From positions 1 through 21,130 of the IMG/VR virus record IMGVR_UViG_3300034018_002918: a stretch of 21,130 nucleotides of DNA, one strand, 5' to 3'. The notes beneath the pieces were generated by a model. The model saw only the letters and a program-made list of their open reading frames with translations. It did not search any database and had not been told where the DNA came from. A program made the position numbers and the translations under genes. Positions 344-16,697 of this stretch are shown in pieces. How positions within the stretch are numbered: position 1 is the stretch's first letter; the number at the start of each line of letters is the position of its first letter. This DNA comes from a virus.

Positions 344-2827
344 TTATGCTTCTATTTCTAAGTTAGTATTATAAGTGAAGATCAGTTTATCAAGTTTTTT
401 ATCAACTTTTATTTTCACTTCAGAACCATCTTTAATTAAGCCAGACAGTAATTCTTCAGATAATGGATCTTCTAGATATTTTTGAATGCTTCTTCGTAAT
501 GGACGTGCACCATATTTTTCATCAAATCCTTTATCTACTAAAAACTCCTTACATGTTTTAGAAATATTTAACGTTATATGTTTATCAGATAAACGACTTT
601 CTAATTTTTGGAGTTGAATATTTAAGATACTTATCATATCTTCTTTTTTTAACTTTTTAAAATAAACAATACCATCAAGACGATTGATGAATTCTGGAGA
701 GAACATAGTTTTTATAGCTGAATCTATTGTTTCTATAATATGCGATTCATCACTAGTATCTTTATTAATAGAAAAACCTAAACTTCCACCAGCTTTAATA
801 TCTCTTTGTCCAATATTAGATGTCATTATTAGTATTGTGTTTCTAAAATCTACTTTTCTTCCTAATCCATCAGTAAGATGACCATCATCAAATACTTGAA
901 GTAATGTATTTAAAGCATCTGGATGTGCCTTTTCTACTTCATCTAATAAAACTACGCTAAAAGGTTTTCTTCGAACTTTTTCAGTTAATTGACCACCTTC
1001 TTCGTAACCTATATAGCCTGGAGGAGCTCCAATTAATTTACTTACAGAAAATTTTTCCATATATTCAGACATGTCTACTCTAATTAAAGAATTTTCACTA
1101 TCAAATAAATGTTTAGCTAATGTTTTAGCAAGCTCTGTTTTACCTACACCAGTTGGACCAGTAAATAGAAATACTCCAGTTGGTCTAGAAGGATCTTTAA
1201 GACCTGATCTTGATCTTCTGATTGATTTTGCTAAAATATCTATCGCTTCATTTTGACCTATAACGTATTTCTTTAATTCATTATTAATGTTCATAAGTTT
1301 TTTTGCTTCATCTTCAGATACCTTTGTAACAGGAATACCAGTCATTATAGAAATTACTTTTGCTACATCTTCCTCAGTTACAATTTGTTGATTATCATCT
1401 AAAGATTTTTCCCATGAAAATTTTATTGCTTCTAAATCTACCTGTATATTCCTTTCTCTATCACGAAGTTTAGCAGCTTCTTCAAAATTTTGATTTCTTA
1501 TAGCCTGATTTTTTTCAATACTAATTTCACCTAATTCTTGTTCTAATGACAAAATTTCTTTTGGCACTTCGATATTTGATAATCTAACTCTAGCCCCAGA
1601 TTCATCTAGTACATCAAATGCTTTATCTGGAAAGAATCTATCAGTAATATATCGTTCAGATAATTTTACACAAGCTTTGATAGCATCGTCAGTGTATTTT
1701 ACACCATGATGCTTTTCATATTTATCTTTCACATTAGTAATAATTTCTAATGTTTCTTCTCTAGTAGGAGCTTCTATAATTATTTTTTGAAATCTTCTAT
1801 CTAAAGCACCATCCTTTTCAATATGTTCTCTATATTCATTGAGTGTTGATGCACCAATACATTGAATCTCACCTCTAGCTAAAGCTGGTTTTAACATATT
1901 AGCAGCATCTAAAGAACCAGAAGCACCACCAGCACCAACAAGAGTATGTAATTCATCAATAAATAATATTATATCTTCATTTTTTTCAAGTTCTTGAACA
2001 ACAGACTTCATACGTTCTTCAAATTGTCCTCTATATTTAGTCCCTGCAACCATTGATCCCAAGTCTAAAGAAATAACACGTTTGTTCATTAAAGCTCTTG
2101 GAACTTTTCTTTCAATTATTTTTAAAGCTAAACCTTCAACTATTGCTGTTTTACCAACACCAGGTTCACCTATTAAAACAGGGTTATTCTTTTTTCTTCT
2201 TGCAATAACTTGTACAACTCTTTCAATCTCATTAATTCTACCAATTACTGGATCTAATTTTCCTTCTGCCGCTAACTTTGTTAAATCTCTTCCAAAATTA
2301 TCTAAAACTGGAGTTTTGGTTTTAGTTGTAGTATTAGGTTTAGGTTTTTTTAATGCAGATCTGTTTATGGTTGAAGATAATGTTTCATCATCATTGTTAA
2401 TGTATAAATCTAATTCTTTTCTAAATGTATCATAATTTATATCTTGAGCGTGCAAAGATTTGGAAGCTTCATTCTCCTCATCTCTCAAAATAGATAGTAT
2501 TAAATGTTCACTTCCTATTTTCTCAGATTTGTACAATTTAGATTCTAAATAAGTTACCTTTAATACTTTTTCAGCTGTTTTTGAAACAGATAAATTTGTC
2601 GTTTGGATTGAAACTTTACTTGTATCTAATTCTTTAACAATTGATTTTTGTAATTGTTTTAAATCTGTATTAAGAGATTTTAGTACTTCAATTCCTATAC
2701 CTTCATTACGTTTTAAAACACCTAATAGTAGATGTCCTATCTGAATGGTATCATGTCCTAATCTCATTGCTTCTTCTCTTGAATTTCTAATGACTTCTTG
2801 AAGTCCTTCCGAGAAATTTGCTTCCAT
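344..2827 (-). CDS. clpC: ClpC-type AAA+ unfoldase (Clp protease ATP-binding subunit)
   Basis: This 827-residue protein has full ClpC architecture. A Clp N-domain repeat covers about 1-145. The first AAA+ module has Walker A GEPGVGKT at 220-227 and Walker B IILFIDE at 286-292. A UVR-like middle segment lies near 430-465. The second AAA+ module has Walker A GPTGVGKT at 557-564 and Walker B VVLLDE at 625-630. An LGF tripeptide at 683-685, just after the SNIG sensor region, matches the ClpP-docking loop of unfoldases that work with ClpP. ClpC uses ATP to unfold substrates and thread them into ClpP. The ATG start is preceded by AAAGGAA. The gene follows clpP on the same strand after a 76-base gap holding a hairpin and a late-promoter-like box. 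No key motif is missing, so it should be active. ClpA is less likely because of the UVR segment. Confidence 0.93.
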
Positions 2828-2903: not shown

Positions 2904-3542
2904 CTATAGAATTTTATCTATGATACCATAATTTAATGCTTCCTCAGAAGACATCCAATTGTCTCTGTCTGCATCTTTCATAATTTTTTCAACACTCTGA
3001 CCTGTATGCTTTGAAATTACACTATATAAACTTTCTCGAATTTTAATCATTTCTCTTGTATAAATTTCTATATCTGATGCTTGACCTTGTGTACCACCTA
3101 AAGGCTGATGCATCATAACTCTTGAATGTGGCAAGGCATATCTTTTCCCCTTTGCTCCTGCGGTCAAAATCACTTGACCCATAGAAGCTGCCATACCAAC
3201 ACATATCGTCGATACATCAGGCTTTATGTATTGCATAGTATCATATATAGCCATACCTGCACTAACACTGCCTCCTGGTGAATTTACATAAAGATGTATG
3301 TCTTTATTAGGATCTTCAGACTGTAAAAATAAAAGTTGGGCTATAATTATGGAAGAAGCATAATCATCAATACCACTACCCAAATAAATAATTCGATCTT
3401 TTAATAATCTTGAGAAGATATCATATGATCGTTCTCCTCGTGAACTTTGTTCAATTACGTAAGGAATTAAATGAGATTTCATATTTTCTTTTAAAAATGA
3501 ATAATCAACTTTAGTTATAACCTTTTTATTATAAAATTGCAA
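2904..3542 (-). CDS. clpP: ClpP serine protease subunit
   Basis: ClpP is the barrel-forming serine peptidase that degrades substrates fed by ClpC, ClpA or ClpX. In the 212-residue frame the catalytic triad is Ser120 (in GMAASMG), His145 (in MMHQPLGG) and Asp194 (in DRDNW). The spacings of 25 and 49 residues equal those in E. coli ClpP. The sequences around [19 protein letters not shown] and QGQASDIEI are the usual conserved blocks and look most like Bacteroidota ClpP from memory. The frame can start at a TTG (3540-3542), giving an N-terminal extension, or at the ATG at 3480-3482 (residue 21), giving 192 residues, close to the usual length and beginning just before the [10 protein letters not shown] block. 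Bacteroidota ClpP often has an N-terminal extension, so I keep the longer frame but the start is uncertain. It is followed by clpC, its likely partner. Confidence 0.93.
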
Positions 3543-3636: not shown

Positions 3637-4032
3637 ATGATTACAATTGTATCCATCCATTGGGATGTAAGAAATAAAGGATGGGTAATAGATTCAGATA
3701 AATGTAAGATCAAGTCTAATAAAAAAAATATTGTTGAAATTTCTATTTCTGGTGTTCGTAAAAATATATTCATACATAAAGACATATTTAAATATCTAGA
3801 AATATTCTACCCTACAGAATATAATAGTACTGATTATAGTAATATAGATTGGGCTGCTTATTCATTGAGGGATTGTATATTCTTTATAGAAAATACTCAG
3901 GATTTAAAAAAAGGGTTGTGTTATTTCTATCGAAATTTGGAAAAGGTAGAAATAAATGAAGAACTCAATGGAAATAAAATAGATTATTTTATAGATAGAT
4001 CATCATTTTCTCATGGATTTTTTATTTCTTAA
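3637..4032 (+). CDS. hypothetical protein, 131 aa
   Basis: I do not recognise this protein. It has no transmembrane segment or signal peptide, and is rich in Ile, Lys and Asn. A compact N-terminal part (VSIHWDVRNKGWVIDSDK) reads like beta strands and is followed by a more mixed C-terminal half with several aromatic residues. The ATG start is supported by the upstream stretch GGTTAAATT and by a start-site 13-mer, ATGATTACAATTG, shared exactly with the gene at 6032. It is divergent from clpP across a 94-base gap and lies directly before the tmRNA. An AT-only hairpin overlaps its stop codon. A small accessory or regulatory protein is possible, but nothing in the sequence shows a function. Confidence 0.65.
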   Translation: MITIVSIHWDVRNKGWVIDSDKCKIKSNKKNIVEISISGVRKNIFIHKDIFKYLEIFYPTEYNSTDYSNIDWAAYSLRDCIFFIENTQDLKKGLCYFYRNLEKVEINEELNGNKIDYFIDRSSFSHGFFIS

Positions 4033-4089: not shown

Positions 4090-4478
4090 GGGGGTGTCAT
4101 TGGTTTCGATTAGCTTTTGACGCATCAAGAAGCAACCCGTGCTGATACTCGGTGGAGCACGATAATACAACTGAGTAATTTATAAATGGCAAAAACACAC
4201 ATATTTTCAATCATTATCCAATGGTTGAAGTATCTCAGAACCAATACGCAATAGCGGCTTGATTCCGAGTGATATAATTTGCGGTCGTTCTCATTATATC
4301 ACTCGTCGCTTATAACGACATATATCATAAGAAGCTTTCGTTTTATGAAGAACTTTAGAAAGCACAGTTGCTATCGGCTGCTCTTTGCCTAAATAGATAA
4401 CTTATTATAAAAGAGATATGGTTGTAGTGTTCTAATAACTTGGAAGTTAAGACAGGGGTTCGATTCCCCTCACCTCCA
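4090..4478 (+). ncRNA. ssrA: transfer-messenger RNA (tmRNA), complete
   Basis: tmRNA rescues stalled ribosomes and adds a degradation tag, together with SmpB. The acceptor stem GGGGGTG (4090-4096) pairs with CACCTCC (4471-4477) with one G-U pair, as in E. coli, and the discriminator base is A4478. The T arm is AGGGG / TTCGATT / CCCCT (4454-4470). GGTTTCGAT near 4111 matches the conserved 5' D-like segment. Pseudoknot 1 has stem CGTGCT/AGCACG (4138-4143/4156-4161) with loop TACTCGGT (4146-4153) pairing to ACTGAGTA (4170-4177). A later pseudoknot has a 13-bp stem (4266-4278/4293-4305) with loop GTCGTT (4284-4289) pairing to AACGAC (4314-4319). A third has stem TCATAA/TTATGA with loop GCTTTC (4334-4339) pairing to GAAAGC (4358-4363). 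A further one is likely near 4366-4405. CCA is not encoded (ACA follows), so it must be added. The RNA is intact and should be functional. Confidence 0.97.
4188..4262 (+). other. tmRNA tag reading frame, 24 codons
   Basis: After pseudoknot 1 the frame GGC AAA AAC runs 24 codons to TGA at 4260-4262. The tag begins GKNTHIFNHYPM and ends VEVSQNQYAIAA. The end matches the YALAA-type degron of other tmRNAs, and the GK start is like that of the Bacillus subtilis tag. The competing frame from GCA at 4189 ends in a non-degron sequence and was rejected. Most tags are about 8-15 residues, so this one is long. Confidence 0.85.
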
Positions 4479-4509
4479 CAAATTTATTTTTTATTATCAT
4501 TTTATTTAT

Positions 4510-4544: not shown

Positions 4545-5348
4545 ATGAATAATTGGAAAACAAAAAGCTCATATGATATTCTTGAAGAATTTTCAAAGAT
4601 ATTATCTCATTCATCTTTTGATAAACACGCTCCTACATGGAATCCAAGACTTAATAAAATAACCAGAATTCTTGTTGAGTCTAATATTCCATATGAAACT
4701 ATCCATTATAATGTTCCATTTTATAAAAGGGATTTTACAAATATTTATATTTCTTTTTCAAAGGATTTAAATATTCCAGGGCTTATGTTTTTAGCACATC
4801 ATGATATTGTAAATGAAGATTCTGAAAATTGTCAGGATAATACTGCATCTATAAGTCATTTGTTAAAATTGGCATTAGACTTAAATGATAATCCTCCTCC
4901 TATACCTATACATATTGCAATAGTTGATTCAGAAGAACATGTAAATCCATATTGTTGTGGAAGTCAAGTTCTTTCTGAAGATATTAAATGTGGTAAGTTT
5001 GGAGATATATCCGCTTGTATAAACTTGGAACTAACAGGACTAGGAAAACATATATGGGTAAGTTCGTTTGAAAAATTTGAGGATATATGTGATCCTTATA
5101 TACAATTACTTAATGCAAAAAAAGTCCAAACTCCATATAATGATGCCTTTGTTCTTTCTTTACATGGAATACCTGCAATGTGTATAGGAATTCTTGATGA
5201 TTATGATATAGATGTTGCCTTAAATGGCTATGGTTATCCAAATATTTGGAATTTGTGTCATAGAATGGAAGATACATTTGATAAAATATCTAAAGAAGAT
5301 ATGGATGAATTTTATTTTAAACTTTTGAGCATTTGCAATTATGAATGA
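4545..5348 (+). CDS. M28-like zinc metallopeptidase
   Basis: This 267-residue protein has the motif order of M28/M20-clan zinc aminopeptidases. AHHD (84-87) supplies a His and an Asp. QDNTAS (97-102) holds the bridging Asp98. DSEEH (128-132) carries the catalytic and ligand Glu pair. NLELTG (160-165) sits where the fourth ligand is expected, with Glu162 in place of the usual Asp. CHRMEDTFDKI (238-248) resembles the HTPxDTxDKI end of the family and gives the last His. The family removes N-terminal residues or hydrolyses related amide bonds using two zinc ions. There is no signal peptide, so it should act in the cytoplasm. It is the first gene after the tmRNA and overlaps the next gene by 8 bases. 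The start is preceded by AAAGG. Substrate is unknown; peptides released by ClpP or cell-wall peptides are guesses. Confidence 0.75.
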   Translation: MNNWKTKSSYDILEEFSKILSHSSFDKHAPTWNPRLNKITRILVESNIPYETIHYNVPFYKRDFTNIYISFSKDLNIPGLMFLAHHDIVNEDSENCQDNTASISHLLKLALDLNDNPPPIPIHIAIVDSEEHVNPYCCGSQVLSEDIKCGKFGDISACINLELTGLGKHIWVSSFEKFEDICDPYIQLLNAKKVQTPYNDAFVLSLHGIPAMCIGILDDYDIDVALNGYGYPNIWNLCHRMEDTFDKISKEDMDEFYFKLLSICNYE

Positions 5349-8670: not shown

Positions 8671-11600
8671 ATGATGTATGCAGCCGATCAGTTTTTACGT
8701 AAGTTTTTAGGTATTTCTAGTATAGTGGATCCTGGAATACTAAATAATTATAATCATGAAGACCCTACATATCCTATATTTCATATTAAGTTTGCTTTTA
8801 ACCCACCAGAAGCAAAGCACCCAGATTATGTTACAAATAGATTACTAAGTGACCTCAAAGATGAAACGTCTCAGGTAGCTCCAGAATCAGCTATAAAATT
8901 TCTGTATAATGTAGGGGAGCCTGAAAGAGCAATTATGCTAAGAAAATTCAACTTAGCTTTAAAGTCAATTAGTGAACAAACCCCATGGTATTTTCAAGGT
9001 ATAAATGGAATAGAAGGTTTATTTAAACATGCATATCCATCTGAAGGTAGAGGTGAAGCAGGACTTACGGATGCAGTTATTGACATATCTACATTGGATA
9101 GTATTGACTTTAGGATTACGGCTTTAAAGGATCTTTATAGAAAAGCAGCATATGATAGGAAGTATAGAAGATGGGTTTTACCTGTCAATATGAGAAGATT
9201 TCGAATGACTATTATGGTCGGAGATGCAAGACAATTAGCTATAACAGAAGATAATTACTCTATAAATGGTAAACAAGCGTTACAAGCATTAAGAGATATA
9301 GATATTTTTAATGCTAGTAATATAGGTGGAAAACTTCTAGGTAAAGTTCGTGATGGATCTTTATCTTTTGTTAAAAGACTTCAATGGTGGGATAATCATT
9401 TTTCATGTTTAGTATTTGACTGTCAAGATTGTGAATTTGATATGAATAGTTTTAGTGGAATAAATAGCTTAAGTCACCCAAGACTTAAAGATACTACTCT
9501 TGCTCAGAGTCTAAAAATAAAAATAGGAAGAGTTATAGAAAGTAATACATATAGTCTTTTGGAATATTCATTAAGTGATAATTTAATTGAAAATTTTTTA
9601 AAGTCTGAAAATAAATCAGATGTAATAAAACTTTCTCAAACTTTAAATGCGGCTTTTAAACCTAAGGTTCCTTATTGGAATAATTATCAAAATCTAGAAA
9701 GAGATAAAGGGGATAATAAAAGAATTATTACTGAAGATGGTGGATTTGGAAGTGCTATATCTCAAGGTGCAAATGCTGCTGCTGCTGCTTTAGGCATAGA
9801 TGGTATCACGCAAGGTACAAATCTTGGTGGTGGAGGTGGAATTTTAGGTTCTTTAGGCTCTATTGTTGATTTTGCTGGAGATACTGCATCAGAAATAGCT
9901 CAAGAAGCTTTAGGTTTGGCAACTGAACAAATCACAAAGAATGTATTTGGTAATGATCTTTATCGTTCAGCAGCAGGTATAGGGCTTGGTATTTTAAATG
10001 GAGATTTAAATCAAGTAGCTCAAAACTTTGTAAATCCTGCTATCGCAGGTGCTTTAGGTATTAACATAGAATCTTCAGGAAGACCAATACAACCAAATCT
10101 CAGGGATGGTATTCCAACTAAATTAGAATTAGTAGCACCAAATGTACAAAAGTCTTTAAGCGACATTCAAGCAAATCTTTCAGGTCAAGGTGCAGATCCA
10201 AGATTTCAATCAATTGGAAGACCTGGGGGAAGTTTATTTAATAATCCTAATCCAACTGAAAAACTTTTTGATCAAAAAAATATTGATCTACAAGCTTCAA
10301 GAGTTGAAAAAGAAATGCCTCAAAATATTGAGTTCCAAACTGTTAGAAAAGAAACTAAAATTAATCCTAAAAAAGAAGTTTTAACTGGAGCAACTAAAAA
10401 AACTACATTTGATGAATCTTTAATAAACTTGGAAGGAGCAGGTAAAAAATTAGATTTAACTCCAAGTAGTGCAAATCTAAGTGGTGCTCAACCTCTAAAA
10501 GATTTAACCCCTAATAATGCAGATTTAGTAGGTGCTCAACCTCTTAAAGACTTAGTACCTGATAATGCAGATTTAGTAGGTGCTCAACCTCTAAAAGACT
10601 TGATTCCTGATAATGCAGATTTAGTAGGTGCTCAACCTCTTAAAGACTTGATTCCTAATAATGCAGATTTAGTAGGTGCAGAACCTCTTAAAGACTTGAT
10701 TCCTGATAATGCAGATTTAGTAGGTGCACAACCTCTTAAAGACTTAGTACCTAATAATGCAGATTTAGTAGGTGCAGAACCTCTTAAAGAGTTAGTACCT
10801 GTAAATGCAAATTTAATTGGGGCTGAATCTTTAAAAGACTTAGTACCTACAAGTGCAGAACTAACAGGAGCTGAAGCACTAAAGAAAATTGATCCTGCAA
10901 AAGTTATATTAGAAGGTCAAGATCCATTATTGAGTTTTGATCAAAAATCTATAACTTTAACAGGTACAACTCCTCTTACAAAATTCGCTTCTGCAAATGA
11001 AACTTTAGTGGGTGCAAAAGTGCTCACAGATTTAGCTCAAAGTAAAATTAATTTAGAGGGTACAGAGCCTTTAAATAGTTTAAGTTCTACAAATGTAGAT
11101 TTAGCTGGAAAAACACCATTGAGTAAATTTGAAGAATCTAAAATAGATCTTACAGAATCAAAAGTATTAAGGGATCTTCCTAATTTAAAAGAAGAATTGA
11201 TTTCTCCCACTAAGCAAACAAGTTTTAATGAAACTACAGCTGATTTAGATGGAATAAAACCTCAAACTAAATTTGCTGAAGACAATGTAAATTTAGAAGG
11301 AAGTGCAATTAAGTCAAGTTCAATTAAAAATGCTAATTTAATAGGAACACTACCGATTTCTAAATTGAATGAAAGTAATGTTGAATTAACTGGAAATAAT
11401 AAAAATACTGTAAAAGAACTTGGAGTTGCAGAACTAAATGGAAAAACACCAGCGGATAAACTTTCTGAGAGTAATGTTGGAAATATGGAATATAATGAAA
11501 GCTTAACATCTACTTCATTAGGAAAAGAAACGTTACTTGGCAAAGAGCCTGTCACAGCTTTTTCTGAAAATAATATAGGTAATATGAAAAATGAAGTTCC

Positions 11601-12504
11601 GAATACTTTATCTTCATTAGGAACAGAAACATTGCTTGGAACAAAACCTCTTACGAATTTATCTGAAACTAATGTTAATCTTGTAGGAGCTACAGTACAA
11701 AATAAAATTTCTGAAAAAATTGAATTAAACAGTGCAAGTATAACTACAAAAATGGATAAAAATGTTCGTTTAGAAGGTACAGCTCCATTAAATCATATGA
11801 ATGATAATGTAGAATTGAAAGGTGCTATAAATATAAATACAACATTTCCATCTACAAATATTAATCTAGAAGGTAAAGAGGGTGCTACTTTACTACCTAA
11901 TCAAAATGTAGAATTAGAAGGTAAGCAGCCTCAGAGTAATACCATAAGTAATGCTTTTGAAGGTCAACGTACTCTAGGTATAAATAAAAATAAAAAAACT
12001 TCCCAAGGAAATGTTGAACTAGAAATTTCGAAACCTCTACAGGTTCTACCAACAAAAAATGTTGATACAGAAACAAGAAGTTCTTCATATACAATAGGTC
12101 AAAATGTATTTCAGGAAAATAAAGGTATAGGGATAAAAAGTAATAATCAAACACTGCCACAAAGTCGTATAGAGTTTGAAACATCTTCTGTTATGGGAAA
12201 TACAACTTCTGAAAATGTAGGTTTTGAAACTCCCTTTACTAGAGAGAATACAACTTCTGAAAATGTAGGTTTTAAAACTCCTTTTACTAAAGAGAATACA
12301 ACTTCTGAAAATGTAGGTTTAGAAGCACCTTCTATTCAAGAAAATACAAATTATAAAAATGTAGGTTTAGAAGCACCTTCTGTTCAAGAGAATACAGGTT
12401 ACAAAAATGTACAATTAGGAGTACCTTCAGTTAATACACCAATAAGAGAAGTTTCTGGAGAACTGTCTGTTGTAAAAAATCCTAAAGATTCAAACTCACA
12501 ATAA
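8671..12504 (+). CDS. 1277-aa virion protein with 16-residue repeats
   Basis: Residues 1 to about 350 form a folded domain of tail or baseplate character (DPTYPIFHIKFAFNPPEA, RRWVLPVNMRRFRMTIMVGD, LVFDCQDCEFDM). A Gly/Ala-rich hydrophobic stretch follows at about 355-475 (ISQGANAAAAALGI, LGGGGGILGSLGS). From about 575 to 1260 it is repetitive, with a 16-residue period. The first block follows NADLVGAQPLKDLIPD, decays gradually, and ends in a second set of type ENTTSENVGFETPFTR. The layout suggests a baseplate or tail-tip protein carrying a long repetitive stalk. A tape-measure protein is less likely because the repeats are beta-like rather than helical. ATG at 8674 is an alternative start. 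Frame integrity over 3.8 kb supports a real gene. The T4 counterpart is not identified. Confidence 0.75.
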   Translation: MMYAADQFLRKFLGISSIVDPGILNNYNHEDPTYPIFHIKFAFNPPEAKHPDYVTNRLLSDLKDETSQVAPESAIKFLYNVGEPERAIMLRKFNLALKSISEQTPWYFQGINGIEGLFKHAYPSEGRGEAGLTDAVIDISTLDSIDFRITALKDLYRKAAYDRKYRRWVLPVNMRRFRMTIMVGDARQLAITEDNYSINGKQALQALRDIDIFNASNIGGKLLGKVRDGSLSFVKRLQWWDNHFSCLVFDCQDCEFDMNSFSGINSLSHPRLKDTTLAQSLKIKIGRVIESNTYSLLEYSLSDNLIENFLKSENKSDVIKLSQTLNAAFKPKVPYWNNYQNLERDKGDNKRIITEDGGFGSAISQGANAAAAALGIDGITQGTNLGGGGGILGSLGSIVDFAGDTASEIAQEALGLATEQITKNVFGNDLYRSAAGIGLGILNGDLNQVAQNFVNPAIAGALGINIESSGRPIQPNLRDGIPTKLELVAPNVQKSLSDIQANLSGQGADPRFQSIGRPGGSLFNNPNPTEKLFDQKNIDLQASRVEKEMPQNIEFQTVRKETKINPKKEVLTGATKKTTFDESLINLEGAGKKLDLTPSSANLSGAQPLKDLTPNNADLVGAQPLKDLVPDNADLVGAQPLKDLIPDNADLVGAQPLKDLIPNNADLVGAEPLKDLIPDNADLVGAQPLKDLVPNNADLVGAEPLKELVPVNANLIGAESLKDLVPTSAELTGAEALKKIDPAKVILEGQDPLLSFDQKSITLTGTTPLTKFASANETLVGAKVLTDLAQSKINLEGTEPLNSLSSTNVDLAGKTPLSKFEESKIDLTESKVLRDLPNLKEELISPTKQTSFNETTADLDGIKPQTKFAEDNVNLEGSAIKSSSIKNANLIGTLPISKLNESNVELTGNNKNTVKELGVAELNGKTPADKLSESNVGNMEYNESLTSTSLGKETLLGKEPVTAFSENNIGNMKNEVPNTLSSLGTETLLGTKPLTNLSETNVNLVGATVQNKISEKIELNSASITTKMDKNVRLEGTAPLNHMNDNVELKGAININTTFPSTNINLEGKEGATLLPNQNVELEGKQPQSNTISNAFEGQRTLGINKNKKTSQGNVELEISKPLQVLPTKNVDTETRSSSYTIGQNVFQENKGIGIKSNNQTLPQSRIEFETSSVMGNTTSENVGFETPFTRENTTSENVGFKTPFTKENTTSENVGLEAPSIQENTNYKNVGLEAPSVQENTGYKNVQLGVPSVNTPIREVSGELSVVKNPKDSNSQ
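10471..10902 (+). repeat. 48-bp tandem repeats in the 1277-aa gene
   Basis: About nine 48-bp units begin at 10471, 10519, 10567, 10615, 10663, 10711, 10759, 10807 and 10855. The central five or six are nearly identical at the DNA level and the outer ones are diverged. The unit is 16 codons, so copy changes keep the frame. Degenerate 16-residue repeats continue well past 11900 in the protein. Confidence 0.93.
12211..12450 (+). repeat. second set of 48-bp repeats, about five units
   Basis: Units begin at 12211, 12259, 12307, 12355 and 12403, each encoding a variant of ENVGFETPFTRENTTS. The period is again exactly 48 bases, although the sequence differs from the first block. Confidence 0.88.
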
Positions 12505-13289: not shown

Positions 13290-16200
13290 ATGGCTAAATC
13301 ACTACTTCAAATAACGCCTTATGCCTTGGTAGAATTAGATTACGACACTACAGTAATATCTACCAATACGCAGTCTTTTTTGTTTTTCAATTCTTCATAT
13401 ACAAATGAAAGACAATTACTGAATGTTACAAAAGGAAATAATCCAACATCTAATATTTTAGATAGATCTGCTGTACGTTTGACTGATTCTAGAACTTGGG
13501 CACATTTAGATCAAGATAGAGCTATCCCTTATAATAGTTATGATTCTGCAAATCTTTCTCAAAGTTTATTAAGTGATTATACTAGTACACAATGGCCAGT
13601 TGAATATGAAACTTTAAAATTACATTTACTATCAGGATATAATCTAGAAGATTTAGATGGTTTACTTCTTAGTGTTGAATACCCTGAAGTTTCTGGAAAG
13701 AATTGTACAGTTGCTCAAATAGCTTATTTAAAAGGCGATGAGTTTATTAAATTCAATGCTAGACCAATTGTAATTTCAGGACGAAGTTATGATAGATATA
13801 TTGAAGTGTTAATACCCTCTCTTTTTAGTCTTAACGATGAATTTTATGCTAACCCTACATCTGGAGCTTTAGCTTATTGGTTAAGTTCTAATAACAAAGG
13901 TTTTTTGAGAAGCGGTTTAATTTCTATTACATTAAGAGAAATTACTACATCATCAGATAATGGAACAGTTCTTTCATTAACGGCAGGTAATGTTACAAAT
14001 ATAACATATAAACAACAGGATGCATATAGTTTATTAAGTGCTGTTATCATTGAAAATGATGAAGAAGATTGTTTTGAATATTACCCTTCATGGCAAGGTG
14101 GATTTGTAGAAGATTTAGTTTCTAGTTTAAATTCAGTTGGTGGAGATTATTATGTTTTTCATGAACTATATATTTATGAGCAATTAGGGTTTAGTCAAGT
14201 ACAAAGCGATTATTTTGTTTCTATACAAGAAGGTAATTTTAATGAGCCTAAAAAATTTAGGCCTATTTTAAAAAATGCAGATTCCGCATATTCCTTTAGT
14301 ATAGATTATGTAATGAGACTTACAGACAAAGATACTGGAAATCAAATTGTAAGGACAGCCTCTATCACTTCATTTGAGCCTAAAAGACATGGAAGAAAAA
14401 TAGAAAAAGTTAATTTAGAGGGTTCAGTAAGATCCTTTAAAATTTACAACAAAATTATAGAAGAAACTAAACTTCAAGTTAATAGAAAAGTAGTAGATAA
14501 AAGAGTAGAAAAATTATATACTCCTACATTTTTTGATTTTAATGAAGTAGCTGTAAATACATCTAATGTAATCTTAAAAACTGATGGAACATTTACTACT
14601 GAATCTGTTTGGAATTGGGATGTTATTTTTGGACAAGGCGAAGCTATTATGCTTATACATCCTTATGAGAACTATGTTAAATTTAAAATGCATAGATATT
14701 TAGAAAATAATGTTACGACTTCTTTAGATTTACGTTATGATGTTGATTTATTTTTAGTAATAGAATACGCTGGAAAAAGAGTAAGGTTTTCTAAATTAGA
14801 AGGATTTTATTCGACAAATTTAGCTGAAGGTGAAATAGTATTTAAGATACCTGCGAAAGATTCTTCTGCTATTTATTCTAATGAAGGTGGCATATTTTAT
14901 ATCACATCAAAAGTTCCATCCTTTATAAAAGTTAAAGTTATGGACAATTTTGTTGGAGGAATTGCTAATAAAGAAATTAATATTATTTCTAAAGAATTTT
15001 ATTCTAAGGGAGACACAGATTTATTTGAATTGATATATGATGGGGTTACTTATTTTGTTCCTAAAAATATGCTTCAAGTTATTCAAGTTATTCCTACAGG
15101 ATCAGGAGTTAGTGAAACTACTTTATATACAGGTAAATGGAGAAGAATGCAAGATGCAGATACTGTAAAAGATGATATTGAAAAAATAAGAAGAAATGAA
15201 CTTGAAAGGGTTTTAAATAATATTAGAACTTCTCAACTATCTTTGAATACTCGTCAATCTGAATTAAGTCAAAAATCATCTGAACTTGCAGCGTTAGAAG
15301 CTAAATTAAATGCGCAATCCTCCTCACAAAATGCACAAGCAGATTTACTTAATTCTCTACAAAGAGATGTTGCAAGTAAAGATAAAATAAATAATCAAAG
15401 AGAATTAGATTTAAGAGAACAAGCTAGGAAGGCAGCAGAAAAAGAAAATCAAAATATAGCTGCATTTCAAGACCAATTAAATAAGATTTTAAAATCTATT
15501 GAGGACCTTGAAAATGTAAGTGGTGAAGGTGCTGGTGGAGGTGAAGGTAACCAAGGTGGAGGAAACCAAGGTGGAGGTAACCAAGGTGGTGAAGGTGGAG
15601 GAAACCAAGGTGGAGGTAACCTAGGTGAGGGTTTGGGTAATCAAGGTGGAGGTACACAAGGATACCAAGGTGGAGATAATCCAGGTGGGGGAGGGATAGT
15701 CAAAACAGTGGTAACGCAAAATGATGTAATTAATCCTACGCTTGGATTAGATAGATTTAATCCAAATGCAAATATTACTGGTGTAGCTAAAACTATAAAT
15801 TATGTTGATTTTCTAGGAAGATCTGGCAGTGATTTGGGTGTTTTACCTTCAGTTGGATTTTCACCTCTAACTATAGATGCAGGTTTAAATTTTTCTAACA
15901 AAGGACCTTTAGTTGGTGGTGGATTTGGAACAGGTGTCCCAATAGTTAATAATAATTCAGGTGTTAATGCTATTTTAGGTACATCTGGTAGCTCAGTAGC
16001 TAACAAAAGATCATTTATTTCTGATTCTTTAGGAACAAGAAATGGTGCTGGATCTAATAGTGGTGTAACAGTTCTACCTCCTGCTGGAAATACTGAAAAA
16101 ATTGTAAAAGGAAAAGTTAAAACTTGGAGTGATATTTTAGGTGATACGCATACTGCTTGGCAACAATATTTTTCTTTATTTTCGAAATCTACAACTAATA

Positions 16201-16697
16201 TTCGTACTTATGAATCGTGGGATTTCTTTAATTATGATAGAAGGTTAGCTAAATCTGAAATAGATAAATATAACTATAGAGCTTTTGATTATATCCGTGC
16301 GAGAAACAAAGGAGAGATAATTGAATTACAAGTAGAATCTATTTATTATTTATCAGTAGGTGATTTATTAGTAAGTAAAGATGAACATGTGAAAATTGAG
16401 ATTACTTATTTATCATCACCAGGTAGAGTTCGTGGTATTTATATTGATACTAACGTTGCATATAGTTTGGGAAGAATTGGAGTTGTTTTAGGTAGAAATG
16501 TTAATTCTCCAGGAGCTCTTACGAAATATGGCAAATATACAAAAGGATGGGTATTAAAGACTATACTTTATGAAGAAGAAAACATTGATTGGACTATTAT
16601 CAAAAAGAATAGTGGTGGTAATAGAGGTGGAGGTAATGGAGATGGTGGTGGTGGAGGTGGAGGTGGAGAAGGTACTGGTGTTAAACAACCTCTTTAA
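13290..16697 (+). CDS. 1135-aa virion protein with coiled coil and Gly-rich linkers
   Basis: Residues 1 to about 620 are beta-rich with many aromatic residues and no recognised domain (for example SGRSYDRYIEVLIPSLFSLN, CFEYYPSWQGGFVEDLVSSL). About 625-740 form a strong coiled coil (NELERVLNNIRTSQLSLNTR, SELAALEAKLNAQSS, LREQARKAAEKENQN). About 745-802 is a Gly/Asn/Gln low-complexity linker of GGGNQ type. Residues 810-1100 fold again, and the protein ends in a second Gly-rich tail. This layout suggests an extended fibre-like or baseplate-attached virion protein. The gene follows the spike gene after 1 base and precedes a tail-tube-like gene by 21 bases, so it is part of the tail operon. Its exact role is unknown. 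Confidence 0.7.
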   Translation: MAKSLLQITPYALVELDYDTTVISTNTQSFLFFNSSYTNERQLLNVTKGNNPTSNILDRSAVRLTDSRTWAHLDQDRAIPYNSYDSANLSQSLLSDYTSTQWPVEYETLKLHLLSGYNLEDLDGLLLSVEYPEVSGKNCTVAQIAYLKGDEFIKFNARPIVISGRSYDRYIEVLIPSLFSLNDEFYANPTSGALAYWLSSNNKGFLRSGLISITLREITTSSDNGTVLSLTAGNVTNITYKQQDAYSLLSAVIIENDEEDCFEYYPSWQGGFVEDLVSSLNSVGGDYYVFHELYIYEQLGFSQVQSDYFVSIQEGNFNEPKKFRPILKNADSAYSFSIDYVMRLTDKDTGNQIVRTASITSFEPKRHGRKIEKVNLEGSVRSFKIYNKIIEETKLQVNRKVVDKRVEKLYTPTFFDFNEVAVNTSNVILKTDGTFTTESVWNWDVIFGQGEAIMLIHPYENYVKFKMHRYLENNVTTSLDLRYDVDLFLVIEYAGKRVRFSKLEGFYSTNLAEGEIVFKIPAKDSSAIYSNEGGIFYITSKVPSFIKVKVMDNFVGGIANKEINIISKEFYSKGDTDLFELIYDGVTYFVPKNMLQVIQVIPTGSGVSETTLYTGKWRRMQDADTVKDDIEKIRRNELERVLNNIRTSQLSLNTRQSELSQKSSELAALEAKLNAQSSSQNAQADLLNSLQRDVASKDKINNQRELDLREQARKAAEKENQNIAAFQDQLNKILKSIEDLENVSGEGAGGGEGNQGGGNQGGGNQGGEGGGNQGGGNLGEGLGNQGGGTQGYQGGDNPGGGGIVKTVVTQNDVINPTLGLDRFNPNANITGVAKTINYVDFLGRSGSDLGVLPSVGFSPLTIDAGLNFSNKGPLVGGGFGTGVPIVNNNSGVNAILGTSGSSVANKRSFISDSLGTRNGAGSNSGVTVLPPAGNTEKIVKGKVKTWSDILGDTHTAWQQYFSLFSKSTTNIRTYESWDFFNYDRRLAKSEIDKYNYRAFDYIRARNKGEIIELQVESIYYLSVGDLLVSKDEHVKIEITYLSSPGRVRGIYIDTNVAYSLGRIGVVLGRNVNSPGALTKYGKYTKGWVLKTILYEEENIDWTIIKKNSGGNRGGGNGDGGGGGGGGEGTGVKQPL
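15521..15696 (+). repeat. Gly-rich low-complexity DNA repeats
   Basis: Imperfect repeats of GGTGGAGGTAACCAA encode a (GGGNQ)n linker inside the 1135-aa protein. The tract is much richer in G than the surrounding DNA, and its strand bias may favour slippage. Confidence 0.85.

Follow-up and report, generated by a model that had tools for sequence, protein, structure and literature searches.

A phage tmRNA gene with a 24-residue tag beside clpC and clpP, and the co-occurrence of long tags and ClpC in phages

Results and Discussion

Genes and features of the tmRNA locus

The window, that is the whole stretch of 21,130 nucleotides analysed here, comes from IMG/VR as a 21-kb virus record and encodes neck, tail-tube and baseplate proteins of T4-like type. 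The tmRNA locus contains the following genes and features.

344..2827, minus strand: ClpC-type Hsp100 unfoldase, 827 aa, with LGF as ClpP-docking loop at residue 683
2904..3542, minus strand: ClpP peptidase, 212 aa, with Ser/His/Asp triad (NCBIfam TIGR00493)
3637..4032, plus strand: 131-aa ORF between clpP and the tmRNA, kept in relatives with 60% and 39% identity
4090..4481, plus strand: one-piece tmRNA gene, ssrA (ARAGORN; Rfam RF00023, full length)
4090..4096, plus strand: 5' half of the acceptor stem, GGGGGUG, pairing with 4471-4477 and giving the G3.U70 pair of alanine identity (sequence)
4188..4190, plus strand: resume codon GGC (Gly), aligned to the Rfam resume codon and preceded by a box common to host and phage tmRNAs
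4188..4262, plus strand: tag reading frame, 24 codons plus TGA (ARAGORN, RF00023, relatives)
4205..4230, plus strand: 11-bp hairpin within the tag frame, arms 4205-4215 and 4220-4230, loop AUCC (fold of 4173-4330, relatives)
4238..4265, plus strand: smaller hairpin with the QYAIAA end and the stop codon (folds; comparison with host and phage tmRNAs)
4267..4304, plus strand: 12-bp stem GAGUGAUAUAAU / AUUAUAUCACUC at the position of pseudoknot PK2 (RF00023 and fold)
4471..4481, plus strand: 3' half of the acceptor stem, CACCUCC, with discriminator A and then CAA (sequence)
4545..5348, plus strand: M28-family peptidase downstream of the tmRNA, kept in relatives

The unfoldase has Clp_N, two AAA domains, a UVR motif and a ClpP-docking loop of the (I/V/L)GF type, which are the marks of a ClpC, and its best PDB match is ClpC of B. 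subtilis (3j3s, E 8e-254). The peptidase scored above the equivalog cut-off of TIGR00493 (318.4 vs 308.6), with the catalytic Ser in GMAASMG, His in MMHQ and Asp in DADRDNW. A 56 kb contig matches both proteins at 100%. The order clpC, clpP, 131-aa ORF, tmRNA and M28 peptidase is kept in two relatives, with occasional extra genes between. The 131-aa ORF gave no match in family searches, and its AlphaFold2 model (pLDDT 53.7, from 3 sequences) was too poor to use; we regard it as a candidate adaptor. SmpB was not found in the contigs of the window lineage, which are fragments of 27-80 kb.

ARAGORN reported a one-piece tmRNA at 4090-4479 on the plus strand, with the tag GKNTHIFNHYPMVEVSQNQYAIAA encoded by gene positions 99-173, equal to window positions 4188-4262. 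The Rfam covariance model RF00023 matched 4090-4481 over its full length with 125.2 bits (gathering 47) and E 5.5e-49. The tRNA-like domain has an alanine-type G3.U70 acceptor and an intact T arm (4090-4096, 4450-4478). The terminal CCA is not encoded in the window tmRNA (A-CAA) and is encoded in one relative, L124. Along the gene, PK1 is followed by the resume codon at 4188, the hydrophobic degron YAIAA and the stop TGA.

Judged by these parts, the window tmRNA looks intact, with putative aminoacylation, SmpB binding and tagging activity. The tmRNA of mycobacteriophage DS6A is little more than a tRNA-like domain, and a similar molecule inhibits tmRNA (PMC4131195), so a decoy or inactive tmRNA which titrates SmpB or disturbs host rescue, with the tag length irrelevant, was also considered. 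All parts are present here in intact form (G3.U70 acceptor, T arm, PK1, open tag frame, stop and PK2), and we find a decoy hardly credible.

Length and origin of the tag

tmRNA tags are regarded as short and almost constant degrons that host ClpXP recognises. A reading made from the sequence alone had proposed a 24-codon tag at 4188-4262, and both programs agree with it on the gene, on GGC 4188 and on the tag sequence. That reading could have been overturned by a covariance model placing the resume codon further downstream; the model's own resume codon aligns with GGC 4188-4190. The box before it, TAAAT followed by GGC, matches Bacteroidota tmRNAs, which have TAACT, TAATT or TAAAT followed by GGC or GAC with the resume codon at gene position 94-99, and the same box stands in most of 28 other phage tmRNAs. 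An annotation artefact, with a short true tag resumed near SQNQYAIAA, has one point in its favour, the resemblance of the YAIAA end to a 9-residue host tag. Against it, the Rfam alignment places the resume codon at 4188, host tmRNAs whose frame is certain have the same upstream box, and in relatives a whole-codon indel leaves the frame open. We rejected such an artefact on the Rfam alignment and on the box shared with host and phage tmRNAs, and consider a short tag very improbable.

Comparison with related phage tmRNAs also bears out the long frame, as three non-identical relatives encode 25-residue versions, GNNSTHIFNLYPMVESTQNQYAVAA, GNNSTHIFNQYPLVGNTQTQYAVAA and GNNSTHIFNLYPMVENTQNQYAVAA (tmRNAs in L124, L204 and L468). 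For a Bacteroidota-type tmRNA the tag is long, with 24 residues against 9 in 20 of 20 Bacteroidota tmRNAs (e.g. GENNYALAA), so about 15 more than in the likely hosts. The claim of unusual length thus holds against Bacteroidota and does not extend to uniqueness, because other phages of this study reach 36 residues and Mycoplasma/Mesoplasma tags, at 27 residues, are also long. PMC8138137 describes the Mycoplasma/Mesoplasma tag as differing in length. The YAIAA end keeps the general degron form of the host tags (YALAA/YAMAA), as had been stated. The internal Met that had been pointed out is present in the window tag and varies even among close relatives (M to L in L204).

Because the tags of the relatives have 25 residues, those of the hosts 9, and the upstream box is shared, the phage tag resembles a tag of Bacteroidota type (GKN...QYAIAA) enlarged by about 15 inserted codons between GKN and NQYAIAA, including an RNA hairpin. 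The phage tmRNA is like the chromosomal tmRNA of Bacteroidota in its one-piece form, in the GGC/GAC resume codon after the same box, in the G..N start and in the YA(I/L)AA end. It is unlike them in that the 9-residue host tags are too short for an internal coding hairpin, and in the tmRNA tree it lies outside the host (Bacteroidota) clade. The tree thus gives no support for recent copying from such a host.

Hairpins and selection in the tag frame

The 11-bp hairpin is part of the insert relative to the 9-residue host tags. Folding of 4173-4330 gave a whole-region z of -3.4, and the hairpin is kept in 4 relatives with 95.5% of cells paired and one compensatory pair, in L204, although these sequences are too few for significance. 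The smaller hairpin at 4238-4265, rather than the 11-bp one, is likely the counterpart of canonical helix 5, while the Rfam alignment gives this role to the 11-bp hairpin instead. Other families with long tags are also predicted to form extra hairpins within the tag frame. Among members of the VSENFL family the hairpin register shifts by one base.

In the VSENFL family (13 distinct tags of 25 codons), pN/pS of codons 1-13 was 0.23 (95% 0.08-0.40), with 1.3 and 4.0 for the two alternative frames, while the seven hairpin codons gave 0.99 (0.60-1.91). From these two values it follows that in this family one part of the tag is selected as peptide and another part is kept as RNA. The window tag family, with four variants, gave 0.56 (0.21-1.59), an interval that spans 1.

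The extra coding stretch folds into an RNA hairpin, a feature missed by the sequence-only reading, so some of the added length may be there for the sake of the RNA. The lengthening could even be driven by RNA entirely: the insert would be selected as a hairpin, for folding or stability of the tmRNA or for the pace of the ribosome on the tag, the extra residues would be a by-product, and host ClpXP would act through the unchanged YAIAA. The window hairpin with its compensatory change, the predicted hairpins of the other families and the neutral hairpin codons of VSENFL all speak for this. Against it, the constraint on VSENFL codons 1-13 is at the peptide level, and the co-occurrence with ClpC described below would not be expected. 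We judge lengthening by RNA alone unlikely, although it is the strongest of the rival explanations.

Long tags and ClpC across phages

We sought tmRNAs in phage records encoding relatives of the window ClpC and, in the reverse direction, searched tmRNA-bearing records for class-I Hsp100 (PF17871). Tags were read by hand where ARAGORN failed, and a tag of at least 20 residues was counted as long. Wherever a phage record had a detected ClpC and a tmRNA tag that could be read, the tag had at least 20 residues; G064, with a weak, permuted match, is outside this count. The ClpC-positive records hold about ten unrelated tag families, as follows.

THIFN (the window's family): 24-25 residues
AINSFG: 25 residues
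ATVGHFV: 21 residues
VSENFL: 25-26 residues
VDENFL/IDENFL: 26 residues
IFNNAD: 33-34 residues
LNKMALV: 22 residues
GDLFANL: 23 residues
Tag of LR756504: 24 residues
Tag of LR756508: 36 residues

The window record belongs to this group, with 24 codons and clpC on the same record. Among IMG/VR records of at least 150 kb, 9 of 9 ClpC-positive records from the first ClpC-based search had tags of at least 20 residues, against 10-16 residues in 13 of 13 ClpC-negative records (Fisher's exact test, p 2e-6, with records that are not independent). This count covers the first search only. It leaves out six records of 152-271 kb, with completeness not established, which have long tags and no detected ClpC (G147, G150, G156, G162, G163, G174); in G150, G162 and G163 the tmRNA is shared with ClpC-positive records. 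Several shorter fragments also had a long tag and no detected ClpC. Eight further ClpC-positive records, reached via ClpP, all had long tags. The annotated huge-phage genomes gave two long tags with ClpC (LR756504, LR756508) and three short tags without it. The complete Lak phages, which have ClpP and SmpB and no ClpC, and LR756500, also without ClpC, have 10-residue tags.

Shared descent only, in which ClpC and a long-tag tmRNA were passed down together in a small number of huge-phage lineages with no functional link, could give the same pattern. Long tags do cluster on the tmRNA tree, and the tree offers four independent contrasts of ClpC and tag length, one of them well supported, which are too few for significance. 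However, the long-tag tmRNAs do not all fall in one group, and the ClpC tree shows four separate phage lineages with long tags whose sequences are unrelated. The 10-residue tags of the ClpC-free Lak phages and LR756500 argue in the same direction. We consider descent alone rather improbable, and less probable than lengthening driven by RNA.

SmpB was found in many ClpC-positive huge phages and in 0 of the 13 short-tag IMG/VR records. SmpB as the driver of long tags was rejected, because the Lak phages combine SmpB with 10-residue tags. In the huge-phage records G021, G043, G044, G049 and G055 clpP lies 64-600 nt from a tmRNA, about 20 loci have it a short distance upstream of the tmRNA, and tmRNA, SmpB and clpC stand within about 9 kb in G168, G170, G171 and G176. 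Tag sequences differ completely between the families, with no common ClpC motif visible, and the N domain is absent from some of the phage ClpCs.

A possible tag for the phage's own protease

The sequence-only reading had suggested that the extra residues serve a phage-specific unfoldase. This fits well with ClpC about 1.3 kb and ClpP about 0.5 kb from the tmRNA and with the co-occurrence of long tags and ClpC, which is a correlation and not a demonstration. Our preferred explanation, held with modest confidence, is a phage trans-translation system in which the long tag fits the phage's own ClpC-ClpP. The phage tmRNA would rescue ribosomes stalled during infection by ordinary trans-translation and add the 24-residue tag, a Bacteroidota-like tag enlarged by about 15 hairpin-bearing codons between the resume codon and the QYAIAA degron. 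The added residues would be a longer unstructured handle, a recognition segment for ClpC, or both, with YAIAA acting as general degron, and the tagged products would be degraded by phage ClpC-ClpP as well as by host ClpXP. The analysis shows the tmRNA with its resume codon and tag length, the conserved hairpin, clpC and clpP as neighbours and the joint occurrence of long tags and phage ClpC; the expression, the tagging and a preferential degradation of tagged products by phage ClpCP are what we infer.

More tentatively, large phages may have a private and complete quality-control route with their own tmRNA, SmpB, ClpC and ClpP. The tag would then be a ClpC-specific signal of two or three parts (recognition segment, RNA-hairpin spacer and general degron), steering rescued products to the viral protease. 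This wider proposal is possible, and we hold it less firmly than the match of the long tag to the phage ClpC-ClpP.

Comparison with known systems

Two elements of this proposal are already published: phage tmRNA with SmpB, and an unusual tag that follows another protease (Mycoplasma/Lon; PMC8138137, PMC3985003). In Mycoplasma/Mesoplasma, ClpXP is absent and Lon recognises the long tag (Gur and Sauer 2008, via PMC8138137 and PMC3985003). The likeness is an unusual tag length tied to a different protease. The difference is an AFA end with Lon there, and YAIAA with a proposed phage ClpC-ClpP partner here. Neither sign of a Lon-directed tag of Mycoplasma type (AFA end, no ClpP) was found in the window, where the tag ends in YAIAA and ClpP is encoded adjacent.

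Huge phages encode tmRNA and SmpB, as described by Al-Shayeb et al. 2020 (PMC7162821), and the window is like them in carrying phage-encoded trans-translation parts. Unlike the present analysis, that paper gave no hit for ClpP or Clp protease in a word search of its main text, and its tmRNA passages are silent on tags. In the open-access literature searched, with subscription journals and preprints largely outside, we found no report of long phage tags, of a link to phage ClpC or of a coding hairpin.

A table in PMC8138137 lists ClpC/MecA degrons of B. subtilis, FMLYPK... in ComK and IILYPR in ComS. The window-family tags contain IFN(H/L/Q)YP, and L124 has FNLYP. We take this likeness as a lead only: it is short, was noticed post hoc, coincides with the hairpin loop and has no counterpart in the other long-tag families.

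If the preferred explanation is true, it would be the second case, after Mycoplasma/Lon, of tag length and content following another protease, which would mean tag-protease co-evolution, and some phages would bring their own rescue-and-degrade system. The question why phages carry tmRNA would become directly testable with one purified unfoldase-peptidase pair, and long tags could be usable as orthogonal degradation signals in the laboratory.

Further observations

ARAGORN missed many long-tag phage tmRNAs that were mostly above the Rfam cut-off (L286, L288-L291, L323-L325). Its tags for L110 (9 residues) and L285/L318 (23/24) were discarded, as the conserved upstream box gives 35, 33 and 34. 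The long-tag pattern is easily overlooked because ARAGORN misses or shortens many such tags.

The 380 kb record G021 (IMGVR_UViG_3300030102_006934) has two clpP genes and two tmRNA genes, at 82619-82990 and 327939-328335, with different long tags, GNEFDIDENFL... and GNILENATVGHFV.... Permuted tmRNAs with short tags of the ANDSVYALAA type and a ClpP-like gene 1-9 kb away were seen in L045, L050, L053, L063 and L087; no ClpC was detected in these records. Four phage records with ClpC and SmpB (G028, G029, G030, G040) gave no tmRNA match above the Rfam cut-off; in these a diverged tmRNA may have escaped detection.

A MAG contig labelled Bradyrhizobiaceae (L342, JAGFIZ010000106.1) encodes a ClpC 61% identical to the window's. 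It is probably misbinned, because its ClpC groups with Ignavibacteriae and Melioribacteraceae in the ClpC tree. No isolated phage emerged as a ready test system. INPHARED ClpC matches under the names of Listeria, Staphylococcus and Enterococcus phages were set aside as they look like host contamination; records so named, among them OR847363, OR846612 and OR844998, carry bacterial ClpC/ClpB genes. Xanthomonas phage XaC1 has ClpP and an Hsp100 with no tmRNA match, MaF61 gave neither a tmRNA nor an Hsp100 match, and the tmRNA match in CcrColossus was an ordinary tRNA.

Elsewhere in the window, a 1277-aa ORF at 8671-12504, between structural genes, has a long tandem array of short peptide repeats (PLKDLIPDNADLVGAQ-like) and is probably a fibrous virion protein. 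A 1135-aa ORF at 13290-16697 contains glycine-rich GGGNQGGG stretches and has remote matches in LR756500 and Flavobacterium phage MaF61.
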